A DNA stretch of 64,000 nucleotides from assembly GCF_009696675.1 (NCBI RefSeq), contig NZ_VULN01000003.1:1-64000 (forward strand), given 5' to 3'. Under the pieces are notes generated by a model. It searched no databases, was not told the origin of the DNA, and worked only from the letters and a program-made list of their open reading frames with translations. Position numbers and translations under genes: made by a program. The DNA is from Acidaminococcus fermentans (lineage in GTDB: Bacteria > Bacillota > Negativicutes > Acidaminococcales > Acidaminococcaceae). Positions 2,539-29,201 of the stretch are shown in pieces (positions within the stretch are counted from its first letter, which is position 1; each line of letters begins with the position of its first letter).

Positions 2539-2558
2539 TTAACTTTATGGAGGAAGTT

Positions 2559-3395
2559 ATGGAACCGATCATTGAAACGAAAAATCTCACCCATACCTAT
2601 GTGGATGGGCAAAATCAGGAAATGACCGCGCTCCAGGGTATCGATCTGTCCATTGCCCCCGGCGAATTTGTCGCCATTATCGGGACCAACGGCAGCGGCA
2701 AGTCCACCCTGGCCCGTCATTTCAACGGTCTCCTGACCCCTACCAGCGGACATTGTCTGGTGGGCGGTCTGGATACCGCCATAGAAGAAAATCTCTGGCC
2801 GGTGCGCCAGACGGTGGGCATGGTGTTCCAGAACCCGGACAACCAGATCGTGGCGGCCATTGTGGAAGAAGATGTGGCCTTCGGGCTGGAAAACATCGGG
2901 GTTCCCGGGCCGGAGATCCGTCCCCGGGTGGAACAGGCCCTGGCGGCAGTGGACATGTTGGATTACGCCAAACGGGCCCCTCACAGGCTGTCCGGAGGAC
3001 AGAAACAGCGGGTGGCCATTGCCGGGGTGCTGGCTCTGGAACCCCGGTGCATCGTTTTTGACGAACCTACCGCCATGCTGGATCCCAAGGGCCGGAAGGA
3101 AATCGTCTCCACCGTGCTGAAACTGAACAAAGAGAAGCACATTACCATTGTGTACATCACCCACAAAATGGAGGAGGCCATCCTGGCGGACCGGATCATC
3201 GCCATGGAAAAGGGGAAAATCGTCCTGGAAGGGACTCCCAAGGAAGTCTTCACCCAGGTGGACCGGATCCGGGGCCTGGGGCTGGAATGTCCCCTGGCGG
3301 CAGAAGTGGCCGATGCCCTGGACAAACAGGGGCACCAGCTGCCGCCCATCATTACCCACAAGGAGTTGTGTGAAGCATTATGTCCATCCAAGTAG
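2559..3395 (+). CDS. ecfA1: Energy-coupling factor transporter ATPase EcfA1
   Basis: One of the two ATPases that power group II ECF vitamin/cofactor importers on the cytoplasmic face. The 278-residue protein shows Walker A GTNGSGKST (residues ~43-51), Q-loop VFQNPDNQIV, signature LSGGQKQRVAIA and Walker B CIVFDEPTAMLD. The ATG at 2559 is chosen because GGAGGAAG lies 6 bases upstream, while the ATG at 2547 overlaps that ribosome-binding site and almost coincides with the predicted transcript start. It overlaps ecfA2 by 16 bases. No S-component is in the operon, as expected for a shared module; one S-component lies at 16018-16584. Confidence 0.95.
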   Translation: MEPIIETKNLTHTYVDGQNQEMTALQGIDLSIAPGEFVAIIGTNGSGKSTLARHFNGLLTPTSGHCLVGGLDTAIEENLWPVRQTVGMVFQNPDNQIVAAIVEEDVAFGLENIGVPGPEIRPRVEQALAAVDMLDYAKRAPHRLSGGQKQRVAIAGVLALEPRCIVFDEPTAMLDPKGRKEIVSTVLKLNKEKHITIVYITHKMEEAILADRIIAMEKGKIVLEGTPKEVFTQVDRIRGLGLECPLAAEVADALDKQGHQLPPIITHKELCEALCPSK

Positions 3396-4243
3396 ACCAT
3401 ATCTCCTATACCTATATGACCCACACCAGCCTGGAAAAGAAAGCCCTGGATGATGTGTCCTTTACCTTGGAAAAAGGGGAATTCGTGGCTCTCATCGGCC
3501 ACACCGGCAGCGGCAAATCCACCCTGGCGGAACATCTCAACGGGCTGCTCCATCCCATGGCCGGGAAAGTGCTGGTGGACGGGGTGGACCTGGCCGCCAA
3601 GACACCGGAAGCCAAAGCCGCCCGGAACCGGGTGGGTATGGTGTTCCAGTATCCGGAGCACCAGCTGTTTGCGGAAACCATTTATGAAGACATTGCCTTC
3701 GGTCCCCGGAACCAGGGGAAGACGGAACCGGAAGTGGAAGAAGCCGTCCGCAGCGCCATGGAATTCGTGGACCTGGATTTTGACAGTTTCGCCCAGCGGT
3801 CCCCCTTCCAGCTGTCCGGGGGACAGATGCGCCGGGTGGCCATTGCCGGGGTGGTGGCCATGGAACCGGATTACCTGATCATGGACGAACCCAGTGCCGG
3901 TCTGGACCCTATCAGCCGGGACAGCATTTTCGGCCAGCTCCGGAAGATTTTCGAAAAACGGAAAATGGGGGTGCTGCTGATCACCCACAGCATGGAAGAA
4001 GCAGCCCAGTACGCCAGCAGGCTCCTGGTCATGAGCGACAGCCGGCTCCAGCTGGACGGCCCGGCCCGGGAACTGTTCACCCATGAACGGGAAAAACTGG
4101 AAGCTCTTTCCGTGGATGTGCCGGAAAGCGTGAAATTGGCGGAAGAACTCCGGCAGCAGGGACTCCCCATTGAAGGGACGCCCATTACCAAAGCCGAACT
4201 GATCCGGGCCATTGACAAAGCAAAGGGGTGGAAAGCATGCTGA
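3380..4243 (+). CDS. ecfA2: Energy-coupling factor transporter ATPase EcfA2
   Basis: Second ATPase of the ECF module, 287 residues. Walker A GHTGSGKST, Q-loop VFQYPEHQLF, signature LSGGQMRRVAIAG and Walker B YLIMDEPSAGLD are all present. The FQYPEHQLF Q-loop form is typical of EcfA2, against FQNPDNQ in EcfA1, which supports a heterodimer. The gene starts inside the end of ecfA1 and overlaps ecfT at ATGCTGA, so the three are translationally coupled. Confidence 0.95.
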   Translation: MSIQVDHISYTYMTHTSLEKKALDDVSFTLEKGEFVALIGHTGSGKSTLAEHLNGLLHPMAGKVLVDGVDLAAKTPEAKAARNRVGMVFQYPEHQLFAETIYEDIAFGPRNQGKTEPEVEEAVRSAMEFVDLDFDSFAQRSPFQLSGGQMRRVAIAGVVAMEPDYLIMDEPSAGLDPISRDSIFGQLRKIFEKRKMGVLLITHSMEEAAQYASRLLVMSDSRLQLDGPARELFTHEREKLEALSVDVPESVKLAEELRQQGLPIEGTPITKAELIRAIDKAKGWKAC

Positions 4244-5043
4244 CAGACATTACCCTGGGACAGTATTATCCCGGGAATTCCTGTATCCACCGGCTGGATC
4301 CCCGGACCAAGATCCTGGCGGTGCTGTTTTACATGGTCATGGTGTTCCTGGCCAATTCGCCCCTTTCCTACGGGATCCTCATCGGGTTCATCGTGGTGGG
4401 GGCGGCCCTGGCCAAACTGCCGGCCGGACTCCTGCTCCGGTCCATCAAGCCCTTGTGGATCATCATCCTGCTTACCATGGTGATCCATTTTGTCACGGAC
4501 CCGGGGGAAGTGCTGTGGCAGTGGAAATTCATCACCATCACCAAAGAAGGGATCGTACTGGGGGTGAAGATGTCCCTGCGGCTGGTGCTGCTGCTCCTGG
4601 TGTCTTCCCTGATGACCTTCACCACCTCGCCCATTGTGCTTACTGACGGCATCGAGGCTCTGCTCCGGCCCTTCAAGAAAATCGGGGTGCCCGCCCATGA
4701 ACTGGCCATGATGATGACCATTGCCCTCCGGTTCATCCCCACCCTGCTGGAAGAGACGGACCGGATCATGAAGGCCCAGATGTCCCGTGGTGCGGACTTT
4801 TCTTCCGGGAACATCATGAAGCGGGCCAAAAACATGCTGCCCATCCTGATCCCTCTGTTCATCTCCTCCTTCCGCCGGGCCGACGAACTGGCCCTGGCCA
4901 TGGAAGCCCGGTGCTACCGGGGCGGAGAAGGCCGGACCCGGATGCATGAACTGGTCTACGGCAAAGGGGATGCTCTCACCGGTCTGGTGATGCTGGGACT
5001 CTTTGCCCTGCTGGCCTTCCTGAGATGGGGGCTCCCTGCATGA
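4237..5043 (+). CDS. ecfT: Energy-coupling factor transmembrane protein EcfT
   Basis: Membrane scaffold joining EcfA1/EcfA2 to exchangeable S-components. The 268-residue protein has an N-terminal HRLDPRTKIL motif, several membrane segments, and the Ala-Arg-Gly/Ala-Arg-Cys coupling motifs (SRGADF near residue 183 and ARCYRGG near 223) on the cytoplasmic helices that contact the ATPases. ATG 4237 is preferred over GTG 4228 because AAAGGGGTGG ends about 5 bases before it. It overlaps ecfA2 by 7 bases and truA by ATGA. Confidence 0.93.
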   Translation: MLTDITLGQYYPGNSCIHRLDPRTKILAVLFYMVMVFLANSPLSYGILIGFIVVGAALAKLPAGLLLRSIKPLWIIILLTMVIHFVTDPGEVLWQWKFITITKEGIVLGVKMSLRLVLLLLVSSLMTFTTSPIVLTDGIEALLRPFKKIGVPAHELAMMMTIALRFIPTLLEETDRIMKAQMSRGADFSSGNIMKRAKNMLPILIPLFISSFRRADELALAMEARCYRGGEGRTRMHELVYGKGDALTGLVMLGLFALLAFLRWGLPA

Positions 5044-25391: not shown

Positions 25392-25457
25392 GAAAGAGTC
25401 AGATTCTTTATCAAGTGTCCCTCCAGGACGTATGAATTTCTGCTTCATGGATTTTAC

Positions 25458-25485
25458 GTTAACCCATATATAAAAGAGGTTGAAC
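25458..25485. promoter_or_regulatory. Probable BirA operator upstream of the bioY operon
   Basis: GTTAACC (25458-25464) and GGTTGAAC (25478-25485) form the two inverted half-sites of the Firmicutes BirA type (TTGTTAACC...GGTTAACAA). The right half departs from it by one extra base. The right half contains the -35 of the operon promoter, so biotinyl-AMP-bound BirA would repress. Confidence 0.6.
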
Positions 25486-25508
25486 AATCCGCCCAAATCC
25501 GGTACACT
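25480..25508 (+). promoter_or_regulatory. Promoter of the bioY operon
   Basis: TTGAAC (25480-25485), 17 bases, TACACT (25503-25508). The predicted start is about 25515, only a few bases before the ATG at 25518, so the first ORF would be almost leaderless. Confidence 0.6.
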
Positions 25509-25517
25509 GGAACCATT

Positions 25518-26034
25518 ATGGAAGAATACACCGAAGGATACATCAGAGCCCTGGGCCAGTTCCAGGGCAGCCGCTATGACCACAGCTTCATTGCCCGGAT
25601 CCATTATGCCAGGGTCCGGCAAGCCGGGCCGGACTGCCGGTTCCGGTGCGTCTGTCTGAAGGACCGGACCCGGAGCCAGCTGCTCCAGGCGGAAGCCTGG
25701 GAGGGAGACCGCCAGGTGGGGACATTACAGGTAGAACTGCTTTTTGCCGGCTCAAAGGTAAACCATACGGAAAAAGTAGGTTTACTGAAACAGGACTCCG
25801 GACCTCCGGAAGGGTACCGGCCCTGGCGGGCCTTTTCCCCGGAAGAAGTGAGGGAGTTTTCCCGGCGCACCGGGGATACCAATCCCATCCATCTGGAGGG
25901 CCGGCCGGTGGTCCAGGGGCTGCTCCTGTGGCAGAGCCTGTTCCGGCACCTGGGAGAACCGGAAAGCATCCATATGTTGTTCAAAGCCCCCGTCCACGGG
26001 GGAGAAATGATTTACTGCAGGGAGGAAACAATCA
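25518..26034 (+). CDS. Hot-dog/MaoC-like protein, 3' end unresolved
   Basis: The open frame encodes a stretch with the MaoC-dehydratase helix motif, FSPEEVREFSRRTGDTNPIHLEGRPVVQG (given here in part: FSRRTGDTNPIHL, residues ~118-130), preceded by a strand-rich half (residues 1-90). In ordinary MaoC folds the strands follow the helix motif, so this looks permuted, partial or double-hot-dog. The frame has no stop before bioY starts at 26035 and stays open to 26414 through unrelated shadow sequence. A TGA at 26036 would end it in another frame, so a frameshift is possible. No ribosome-binding site is visible. Acyl-CoA hydratase or thioesterase activity is inference. Confidence 0.5.
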
Positions 26035-26610
26035 ATGAGCGAAATGAGAGAGAATTTGCATCCGTCTGTGGCCGCAACCGGCAGCCGGGAACAGATCCGG
26101 TTCATGACCGGCAGCGCCGTCTGTGTAGCGCTGCTGGCAGTGTCGGCGTACATTTCTTTTCCGCTGCCTTTTACCCCGGCCATGGTGACAGCTCTCACCA
26201 TTATGGTGAACCTGGTGGCCTTTATCATGAAGCCGAAACAGGCAGCGATCATCCTGGGAATCTATCTGCTGCTGGGAGCCGTGGGGGTTCCGGTGTTCGT
26301 AGGGGGCACTTCCGGACTGCACAAGCTGATCGGACCCACCGGGGGCTTCAATCTGGGCTTCCTGGCGGCAGCTGTGGCCATGAGCGCCGTCCGGGGGAAC
26401 ACCCGGTCCTTTAAGAAGCTGGTGGCCATCGGCATCTGTGTGGGCATGCCCATCATTTATGTGGGGGGCTGCCTGAGCATGTATCTGGTGGCCAAAGTAG
26501 GGGTCTGGAAGACCCTGGTGATGGCCGTGTTCCCCTTCCTGATCGGGGATACCCTGAAAGTGGTCCTGGCTGCCTTCCTGGCCAACCGGCTCCAGCGCTA
26601 TGGGTTCTGA
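26035..26610 (+). CDS. bioY: Biotin transporter S-component BioY
   Basis: Membrane biotin-binding subunit, working alone or with EcfA1A2T. The 191-residue protein has about six membrane segments and the BioY signature GAVGVPVFVGGTSGLHKLIGPTGGF (key parts GVPVF, GGTSGL and GPTGGFNLGF, residues ~83-108), plus FPFLIGDTLKVVLA near the C-terminus. GGGAGG (26020-26025) lies 9 bases upstream. It overlaps the thiolase-like gene by 11 bases. The BirA-like operator upstream agrees with biotin repression. Confidence 0.95.
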   Translation: MSEMRENLHPSVAATGSREQIRFMTGSAVCVALLAVSAYISFPLPFTPAMVTALTIMVNLVAFIMKPKQAAIILGIYLLLGAVGVPVFVGGTSGLHKLIGPTGGFNLGFLAAAVAMSAVRGNTRSFKKLVAIGICVGMPIIYVGGCLSMYLVAKVGVWKTLVMAVFPFLIGDTLKVVLAAFLANRLQRYGF

Positions 26611-27820
26611 GAGACGGGTCCAGGACGTGTTCCTGGTGGGAGGCCTCCGGAGCCATCTGGGCCTCCAGAACGGAATCTTTAAAAATGTACCGCCGGAGAA
26701 ACTGGGTGCTGCCCTTCTCCGGCAGCTTTGTATCCGCTGTCCGGCAGCCCGGGAAGCCCAGCTGATCCTGGGAGGCAATGCCGTAGGCAGCGGGGGGAAC
26801 CTGACCCGGCTTATGGCCCTCACTGCCGGATTCCCTGTGGAAACGCCGGCCCTTACCCTGGACATGCAGTGCGCTTCCGCTCTGGGGGCCCTGTCCCTGG
26901 CCTGGGGGAAGATTGCCAGCGGCCAGCTGGATGTGGTCCTGTGCGGGGGGGTGGAATCTTCCTCCATGCAGCCCCGGCGGGTGTACCAGCCCTGGGACAG
27001 CCGGTACACCCCGGAAGGCTACATGACCGCCCAGTTCTCTCCGGATACCCACAGCCCCCGGGCCATGCTGGAAGGAGCGGAACGGACGGCCCAGGTGTAT
27101 GGGGTGCCCCGGGAGGAACTGGACAGCTGGGCCGTGCGCAGCCACCGGAGGGCGGCCCAGGCGGCGGAAGAAGGCCGGCTGGGACCCTGGGTGGTGTCCC
27201 TGTTCGGCAGTACAAGAGATGAAAGCATCCGGCCCCGGATGAACGGGAAACTGGCCCGGCGGATGCCCACCCTGTTCACCCGGGAGGAAACGGCGGCCCT
27301 GCTGACCCCGGAAGAACGGAACCTGGCGGGAGACTGTACCCCCACTCTGACTGCGGCCAATGCCTGCCTGACCCAGGACGGGGCAGCCTTCCTGGTGCTG
27401 GCTTCCGGTCGGCAGCGGGCTGCCTGGCGCCGGGCCGGGAAACCGGTGCGGCCTCTGGCCCGGATCCTCCACGGTACGGAAGCGGGCGTGGATCCCCGGT
27501 TCAGCCCTCTGGGCGCCCTGACCGTGGGAGAAAAGATCCTGGAAGAAACCGGGCTCCCGGTGGAAGCCATCGACGATTTTGAATACAATGAAGCCTTCGG
27601 GGTGATCTCCGCCCTGTTTGCCCGGCAGTATCCCACCTGTACCGACCGGTACCTGCCTCTGGGGGGTGCTCTGGCCTACGGCCATCCTTATGGATGCAGC
27701 GGTGCTGTGCTGGTGCTCCATGCCCTGGCAGCTCTGGAGGGACAGGAAGGGAAAAAGGCCCTGTGCGCCATTGCCGGGGCCGGAGGCACAGGAGCCGGAG
27801 TGCTCCTGGAAACTTTGTAG
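26600..27820 (+). CDS. Thiolase-like acyl-CoA acyltransferase lacking one catalytic Cys
   Basis: A 406-residue thiolase-fold protein. The acyl-accepting Cys91 is present in LDMQCASALGAL, as are the NEAF motif (DFEYNEAFGVI) and His362 in GGALAYGHPYGCSGA. In the C-terminal motif, normally G-L-A-T-x-C-x-G-G-G-x-G, the cysteine position is alanine (Ala392 in ALCAIAGAGGTG), with a Cys three residues before. This predicts altered chemistry. The gene overlaps bioY and precedes a CoA-ligase-like gene, the same trio as B. subtilis yhfU-yhfT-yhfS (bioY, AMP-ligase, thiolase), a known biotin-regulated set. A role in biotin-precursor acyl metabolism is inferred. Confidence 0.85.
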   Translation: MGSERRVQDVFLVGGLRSHLGLQNGIFKNVPPEKLGAALLRQLCIRCPAAREAQLILGGNAVGSGGNLTRLMALTAGFPVETPALTLDMQCASALGALSLAWGKIASGQLDVVLCGGVESSSMQPRRVYQPWDSRYTPEGYMTAQFSPDTHSPRAMLEGAERTAQVYGVPREELDSWAVRSHRRAAQAAEEGRLGPWVVSLFGSTRDESIRPRMNGKLARRMPTLFTREETAALLTPEERNLAGDCTPTLTAANACLTQDGAAFLVLASGRQRAAWRRAGKPVRPLARILHGTEAGVDPRFSPLGALTVGEKILEETGLPVEAIDDFEYNEAFGVISALFARQYPTCTDRYLPLGGALAYGHPYGCSGAVLVLHALAALEGQEGKKALCAIAGAGGTGAGVLLETL

Positions 27821-27838
27821 CAGAAAGAAGAATCAGCC

Positions 27839-29164
27839 ATGGATTATGGAACGATACTGGAACAATGGGCCCGGGTCCAGCCGGATAAAGCCTGCCTGGT
27901 GGAAGAGGAGCAGGTCTTTTCCTATGGGGAAATGGCCCGGAAGGCCCGGGTGTACAGGGACAGCCTGAAGCAGCTGGGGATTCCCCGGCAAACTGTTCTG
28001 ATCATCCGGCCCAGACCGGCGGCTCAGCTGGAAGCCTTTTTGGGCGCGGAACTGGCAGGCTGGGTGCCGGTGTTGGGCCATCCGGACCTGTCAAAAGAGG
28101 CGGCGGACGAACTGGCCCGGGTCCGGCAGATCGGGTGGATCGACGACGGAACCCTGCGGCCCGGATGCCTGGAGGCTCCAGTGCCGGCCAGGGAACTGTG
28201 CATGGGGGTCCTGAGCAGCGGCTCCACCGGGCTGCCCAAGCTGATGTTCCGGACCTATGGCAGCTGGGGGGATTTCTTTCCGGAACAGGACCGGAAGTTC
28301 CAGGTGGACCGGGACACGGTGGGTTTCTGTGAAGGGAGCATGAGCTTTACCGGGAACCTGAATGTGTGGGCCCAGCTGCTCCATGCCGGTGCCACCCTGG
28401 TGATGGCCTCCAGTCTCCGGAGCACCCGGTGGAAGGCTCTGTTGGACCGGTACCCGGTGACCCTGCTGTACCTGGTGCCGGTGAAGCTGAAGCTGCTGTT
28501 CCAGGTGCTGGAGCGGTCCTATCCGGCTATGAAGACGGTGCTGGCAGGGTCCCAGCTGCTGGATGGGGAAACAGCCCGGACCCTGAAAGCGCATTTTCCT
28601 TCCAGCCAGGTCCTGCTGTATTACGGGGCCAGCGAACTGGACTATATCACCTGGCTCACCTATGAGGAGCTGTTGGCCCATCCCCAGAGCGTGGGAAAGC
28701 CCTGCCCCGGGGTGAAGGTGGAGCTCCGGGAGGGGATGATCTGGATCGATACGCCTTACCATGTGGCTGGTCTGCCCCGGCCCTGTACCCTGGAGGATAT
28801 GGGATATTTCGATAAGGACGGATATTTGATCTTCCTGGGTCGCCGGGGTCAGGTGATCAACAAGGGAGGCCTTACCATCAGCTGCAGCCGGGTGGAACAG
28901 GCCCTGCTGCAGGTGCCCGGGGTACGGGATGCCTGTGTGGTGCCCGTCCGGGACGAAAAGCGGGGAGAAGACCTGGGCGCTGGTGTGGTGCTGGAACCGG
29001 GGATCACCCTGCCCCAGGTACGAAAAGCCCTCCGGAAAACCCTGCTCCCGGGAGAAATCCCCGGCCGGTGGGAACAGCTGGACCAGCTGCCCCTTACGGG
29101 AGTGGGGAAGGTGGATTACAAGAAGGTGAAGGAGAGTCTGGCGTTCTCATACCCTCATTCGTGA
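27839..29164 (+). CDS. AMP-dependent acyl-CoA synthetase-like ligase (YhfT-like)
   Basis: A 441-residue adenylate-forming enzyme. Core motifs are SSGSTGLPKLMF (P-loop, residues ~122-133), YYGASELDYITW (A5-like), GYFDKDGYLIFLGR (A7/A8) and the C-terminal lysine in LTGVGKVDYKK. It is shorter than typical long-chain acyl-CoA synthetases (about 500-560). The start is placed at ATG 27839, 18 bases after the thiolase stop. Together with bioY and the thiolase it resembles B. subtilis yhfT, so activation of a carboxylate for biotin-precursor synthesis or salvage is plausible but unproven. A strong terminator ends the operon. Confidence 0.85.
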   Translation: MDYGTILEQWARVQPDKACLVEEEQVFSYGEMARKARVYRDSLKQLGIPRQTVLIIRPRPAAQLEAFLGAELAGWVPVLGHPDLSKEAADELARVRQIGWIDDGTLRPGCLEAPVPARELCMGVLSSGSTGLPKLMFRTYGSWGDFFPEQDRKFQVDRDTVGFCEGSMSFTGNLNVWAQLLHAGATLVMASSLRSTRWKALLDRYPVTLLYLVPVKLKLLFQVLERSYPAMKTVLAGSQLLDGETARTLKAHFPSSQVLLYYGASELDYITWLTYEELLAHPQSVGKPCPGVKVELREGMIWIDTPYHVAGLPRPCTLEDMGYFDKDGYLIFLGRRGQVINKGGLTISCSRVEQALLQVPGVRDACVVPVRDEKRGEDLGAGVVLEPGITLPQVRKALRKTLLPGEIPGRWEQLDQLPLTGVGKVDYKKVKESLAFSYPHS

Positions 29165-29201
29165 CAAAAGGGTGCCATCGTTTACGGTGGCACCCTTTTG
29201 C
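29165..29201 (+). terminator. Terminator of the bioY operon
   Basis: AAAAGGGTGCCATCG / CGGTGGCACCCTTTT is a long near-perfect stem whose A/T flanks make it potentially bidirectional. Confidence 0.8.

Follow-up and report, generated by a model that had tools for sequence, protein, structure and literature searches.

A putative BirA-controlled operon of Acidaminococcus fermentans combines a biotin importer gene with coenzyme A-thioester enzymes and may serve the salvage of a biotin-related acid

We analyzed a stretch of 64,000 nucleotides (nt) from Acidaminococcus fermentans (assembly GCF_009696675.1, contig NZ_VULN01000003.1, positions 1 to 64,000 of the forward strand; hereafter the window), which contains an operon of four + strand genes that overlap or almost touch each other. 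The first gene (25518..26414) encodes a MaoC/(R)-hydratase-type hot-dog protein, whose domain lies within about 25518-26048. It is followed by bioY (26035..26610), coding for the S component of an energy-coupling factor (ECF) biotin transporter, by a gene for a YhfS-like thiolase-type condensing enzyme (26600..27820) and by a gene for a YhfT-like AMP-forming acyl-coenzyme A (CoA) ligase of 441 amino acids (27839..29164). BioY is a homologue of 4DVE and matches PF02632 with 116.8 bits at a cut-off of 25, Thiolase_N and Thiolase_C were found by Pfam in the third gene, and the AMP-binding domain together with its C-terminal domain was found with Pfam and NCBIfam models in the fourth, confirming the families that the initial annotation had given for these three genes. 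The catalytic motifs of the ligase (P-loop, A5, A8 and A10) are kept. At the end of the operon a hairpin of the rho-independent type with a T-run can be read from the sequence (29166..29199, + strand), which is not among the calls of a terminator scan.

The operon is preceded by a BirA-type operator (25456..25487, + strand), recognized by motif scan and conservation. It has the form GTTAACC-N13-GGTTGAAC (25458-25485), with the left half-site at 25458-25464, the right one at 25478-25485 and a spacer of 13 nt. The promoter read from the sequence (25480..25508, + strand) consists of a -35 element TTGAAC (25480-25485) and, after a 17-nt spacer, a -10 element TACACT (25503-25508); TACACT occupies the same position in A. 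massiliensis and A. provencensis. In a promoter scan the operon promoter scored below the threshold. The half-sites had been described as straddling the -35 element: the operator is indeed located at the promoter, but only its right half-site overlaps the -35. Between the -10 element and the ATG of the hot-dog gene lie 9 nt with no Shine-Dalgarno site, which suggests that the operon is transcribed into a leaderless mRNA. The arrangement in A. massiliensis is alike.

We counted half-site pairs of the pattern GT[TAC]AAC...GTT[GA]A?AC at a start-to-start distance of 18-24 nt. On both strands of the window the pair occurs only once, namely at this operator; with a looser score (two 9-mers, 14/18 matches) the window holds four matches and the operator is not unique. 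The pair is located upstream of the gene module in 60 of the 75 related loci whose upstream sequence is long enough, compared to 0.27 expected from the remainder of the same loci; these loci are akin, so that the 60 matches are not independent events, and their intergenic sequences have otherwise diverged. The start-to-start distance in the related loci peaks sharply at 21-23 nt. A chance origin of the operator was rejected on these counts. We also searched the rest of the genome, whose content beyond the window was judged by family searches. The same operator motif precedes bioB and a bioY-bioD-bioA operon; the region in front of birA-bioY has one GTTAAC and no convincing operator. The sole biotin ligase of the genome carries an N-terminal HTH_11 domain (59.1 bits). 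For Staphylococcus aureus, biotin-responsive repression of bioY and yhfS-yhfT by BirA has been described (PMC6391492). Taken together, the conserved operator, its occurrence at further biotin genes, the HTH_11 domain and the S. aureus precedent make BirA-type biotin control of the operon a well supported prediction, in line with the regulation first proposed for this locus.

A kinship with the yhfU-yhfT-yhfS set of Bacillus subtilis had been proposed as well. The best specific NCBIfam models are indeed YhfS (PRK06690, NF005212) for the thiolase and YhfT (PRK07638, NF005797) for the ligase, the scores being far under the equivalog cut-offs (197.6 bits versus 498 and 160.2 bits versus 518, respectively), which makes the A. 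fermentans set a distant relative as judged by sequence. Bacillales-type bioY-ligase-thiolase loci (L194, L195) reach 594-701 bits on PRK06690 and PRK07638. The yhfU(bioY)-yhfT-yhfS genes of Bacillus and the yhfS-yhfT and bioY genes of S. aureus resemble the window operon in the three gene types and in BirA-type control, whereas the window operon has an additional MaoC-type dehydratase, a much shorter ligase, a different gene order and distant sequences.

Orthologues of the ligase are present throughout the order of A. fermentans and in named genomes, which belong to Acidaminococcus, Succiniclasticum, Phascolarctobacterium, Propionispira, Pectinatus, Mitsuokella, Selenomonas, Schwartzia, Veillonella and Anaerovibrio. 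Further orthologues were found in Clostridioides difficile, in metagenome-assembled genomes (MAGs) of Lachnoclostridium and in a Spirochaetaceae MAG. The gene set recurs in Negativicutes, Clostridia and one spirochaete MAG, at times in a different order, as in Anaerovibrio (bioY-ligase-hotdog-thiolase), and in most loci, over several orders, bioY, thiolase and ligase genes are adjacent. A distant cluster (L192, 3449-11047) comprises genes for a ligase, a thiolase, FAS1_DH and MaoC proteins and a short-chain reductase as well as ECF A-A-T genes. A Vut_1 gene lies upstream of this cluster, and its complete genome holds neither bioB nor bioD. One decayed copy of the module (L069:3414-6182) contains stops in the ligase gene; the bioB of the same genome also looks broken.

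The thiolase-type enzyme keeps the nucleophilic cysteine C91 (CxS), NEAF (N330-F333) and GHP (G361-P363, including His362), and the QCxS cysteine, NEAF (GEAF in L163) and GHP are kept by the module thiolases in general. The second catalytic cysteine (CxG loop) is absent: in all 33 complete module thiolases that were read, Ala or Gly takes its place, and it is also missing in the L192 thiolase and in two YhfS proteins of Bacillales, YhfS of Bacillus and S. aureus resembling the window enzyme in this respect, while each of the 13 ordinary thiolases compared possesses it. In a tree of 50 sequences the Cys-less enzymes fall outside a supported clade made up of the ordinary thiolases. In thiolases the second cysteine serves as the base that deprotonates the substrate in the Claisen step (PMC3406046). 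By analogy with the FabH-like BioZ we infer that its loss may go along with a decarboxylating, malonyl-using condensation; another acyl-transfer reaction could take place instead.

The hot-dog protein scores 18.6 bits on the MaoC model PF01575, below the gathering cut-off of 27. Profile comparison matches it to PhaJ (1IQ6, E = 1e-6), and D-x-N-x-x-H (D120, N122, H125) is invariant in 35 hot-dog sequences. The structural model (predicted local distance difference test score 90.5) best matches HtdX (Z 14.1, root-mean-square deviation 2.9 over 156 residues). With HtdX and the MaoC-family (R)-specific enoyl-CoA hydratases the protein shares the fold and the D-x-N-x-x-H motif; it differs from them by a shortened N-terminal half, its score under the Pfam cut-off and a sequence identity of 10-16%. 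The open reading frame (ORF) overlaps bioY in a different frame for about 380 nt (26035-26414). Since its end varies among close relatives, the tail past the bioY start is probably not conserved.

The initial annotation regarded the MaoC-like ORF as an addition in front of the other genes. We rejected a local addition, as the gene regularly belongs to the set across relatives: of 80 loci, which include cut ones, 50 were found to carry it, and it accompanies bioY, thiolase and ligase genes even where their order differs. Four relatives of the same order that have no hot-dog gene carry a FabA/FabZ-like ORF after the ligase gene (Pfam FabA in L061, below threshold in L064). These replacements, the MaoC gene of the L192 cluster and the recurrence with the module argue for a functional role of a dehydratase-type hot-dog enzyme within it. 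In two loci a thioesterase-like ORF follows the ligase gene (4HBT in L066, by sequence likeness in L068).

We determined which biotin genes accompany the module. The A. fermentans genome contains birA, bioB, bioD and bioA, the latter identified from context only, and neither bioF nor bioW was found by the family searches; the best bioF match has E = 1.5e-5 and 23.6 bits against a cut-off of 426. None of the bioABDF genes lies inside the window, as stated before. Within the order bioF is independent of the module (17 of 38 module-bearing genomes versus 9 of 25, p = 0.60), leaving 21 of 38 module-bearing genomes with no bioF, and so is bioW (p = 1.0), while bioB leans towards the module (p = 0.019, phylogeny uncorrected). 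Among the 32 named module genomes, bioB has an intact match in 26 and bioF is present in 12 to 14; 18 were counted as having no bioF. Five module-bearing MAGs have neither bioB nor bioF and no clear bioD, absences that may reflect assembly gaps, and a genome of 99% completeness with the module thiolase (G423) has no bioB and no bioD.

There are four BioY genes in the A. fermentans genome, one adjoining birA and one adjoining bioD-bioA. C. difficile, Mitsuokella multacida and one further genome (G239) have no BioY besides that of the module. For this reason the module BioY must handle a biotin-type cargo, and a BioY specialized solely for a non-biotin vitamer is unlikely. The separate bioY-bioD-bioA operon (L081:2902-5634) is under the same operator and its BioY seems to have no D-x-x-K lysine. 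This sequence difference hints at another cargo for the bioD-bioA-linked BioY.

The features described above are best, if tentatively, explained by a BirA-repressed salvage operon that would activate an imported biotin-related acid with CoA and remodel its side chain by one C2 step, an explanation to which we give a little less than even weight. Because of the BirA regulation, cargo or product should matter under biotin shortage; because BioY is the partner, the substrate should enter through a biotin-type importer; and the enzyme families suggest CoA activation of a carboxylic acid followed by a gain or loss of two carbons. When biotin is scarce, BirA would leave the operator on the -35 element and the BioY importer would be made together with the three-enzyme CoA-thioester module. 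The ligase would convert the imported carboxylic acid to its CoA ester, the thiolase-type enzyme would attach a two-carbon unit through a C-C bond (or break such a bond) and the hot-dog protein would interconvert (R)-3-hydroxyacyl and enoyl thioesters, while keto- and enoyl-reduction and usually also release would be left to housekeeping enzymes. Bisnorbiotin, a major biotin catabolite in humans (PMC9106636), is exactly one C2 unit shorter than biotin. The conversion of bisnorbiotin (C3 side chain) to biotin (C5) in one C2 step is the most likely candidate, substrate, direction and product being what we infer here. A more detailed pathway of biotin repair, in which BioY imports bisnorbiotin arising from beta-oxidation by host or microbes the ligase makes bisnorbiotinyl-CoA, a decarboxylating, malonyl-using thiolase with no base Cys adds two carbons and biotin is regenerated with the help of the (R)-dehydratase and of housekeeping reductases, is rather unlikely when taken as a whole. 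Several points weigh against a salvage operon of this kind. A dedicated keto- or enoyl-reductase is absent from the operon, as is a thioesterase in most cases, the loss of the second Cys should hamper both the forward and the reverse reaction of an ordinary thiolase, and the excess of bioB, uncorrected for phylogeny, is not needed by a direct route to biotin. A literature search on bisnorbiotin salvage found no paper.

The initial annotation suggested that the enzymes make or trim a pimeloyl-type precursor, or scavenge biotin-related acids. Scavenging gives the best fit; the pimeloyl part does not hold as a general role, since A. fermentans has neither bioF nor bioW and the module is independent of both genes. 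This distribution also argues against a pimeloyl thioester as the general product. Supply of pimeloyl-CoA or another carbon-chain precursor, by elongating glutaryl-CoA with C2 or by trimming longer diacids, would agree with BirA control and has a precedent in the BioZ pathway of alpha-proteobacteria, in which a CoA-activated short diacid is elongated by one C2 unit (PMC11089781). The likeness to the window operon may extend to dehydration and reductions, but BioZ is FabH-like and feeds pimeloyl-acyl carrier protein to BioF, whereas the window enzyme belongs to the thiolase family and its host has no BioF. In its favor, 74 gut species possess BioF-A-D-B although no pimeloyl source is known for them (PMC6593275). 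The genomes of A. intestini (G003, which contains L106) and of one relative have bioF and no bioW (L182, L183), and in the few species of this kind a pimeloyl precursor role is possible. The module accompanies the importer and not bioF, however, and where bioW-bioF is present it forms a separate operon, so that we give precursor supply a low probability. BioW (6-carboxyhexanoate-CoA ligase) is similar to the module ligase in being biotin-regulated and in AMP-forming acyl-CoA synthesis; it belongs to another family, is missing from the A. fermentans genome and occurs alongside the module in other genomes. In Veillonella parvula bioW-bioF lies beside the module in an operon of its own (L188:4547-7048), where the operator is followed first by a gene for a small protein of 166 amino acids and next by bioW and bioF. 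The small protein matches no Pfam family and could be a pimelate importer. The module replacing BioF was rejected, as it contains no pyridoxal phosphate enzyme, and biotin degradation is disfavored because biotin should repress the operon.

Two further explanations place the enzymes elsewhere in biotin metabolism. Acetyl-CoA carboxylase might become limiting under biotin shortage, and ligase, thiolase and dehydratase might scavenge or build acyl chains independently of this biotin enzyme. It is classical that oleate spares biotin, which counts in favor of such a role, YhfT is annotated as a fatty-acid ligase, and such a role would be consistent with the co-regulation with biotin import and with a module that does not depend on bioB, bioF or bioW. 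The tight linkage of the module to bioY instead of fab genes and a thiolase that, in the absence of the base Cys, is ill suited to acetyl-CoA condensation make this sparing role doubtful; a literature search gave no support for it. Quite improbable is the conversion of an acid resembling 7-keto-8-aminopelargonic acid (KAPA), 7,8-diaminopelargonic acid (DAPA) or dethiobiotin to an intermediate for BioA, BioD or BioB. A. fermentans does belong to the type with BioA, BioB and BioD and no BioF, which is thought to salvage KAPA, DAPA and dethiobiotin (PMC6593275), and module and bioB co-occur above expectation; these compounds do not require CoA chemistry for entry into the pathway, however, another bioY adjoins bioD-bioA, and bioB was missing from the five MAGs and from G423.

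The biotin-regulated enzyme set has been known for years in B. subtilis and S. aureus. New are its wider spread, a regular fourth enzyme, hosts unable to use pimeloyl thioesters and a thiolase with no catalytic base. The default pimeloyl guess is thereby removed and a vitamin-salvage reaction becomes testable for a gene set that concerns the common gut genera Acidaminococcus, Phascolarctobacterium, Veillonella and Selenomonas as well as C. difficile.

At some distance from the operon the window also contains ecfA1-ecfA2-ecfT (2547..5043, + strand; TIGR04520 and TIGR04521 above cut-off, PF02361). These genes encode a shared ECF energizing module, presumably the one that BioY would need.

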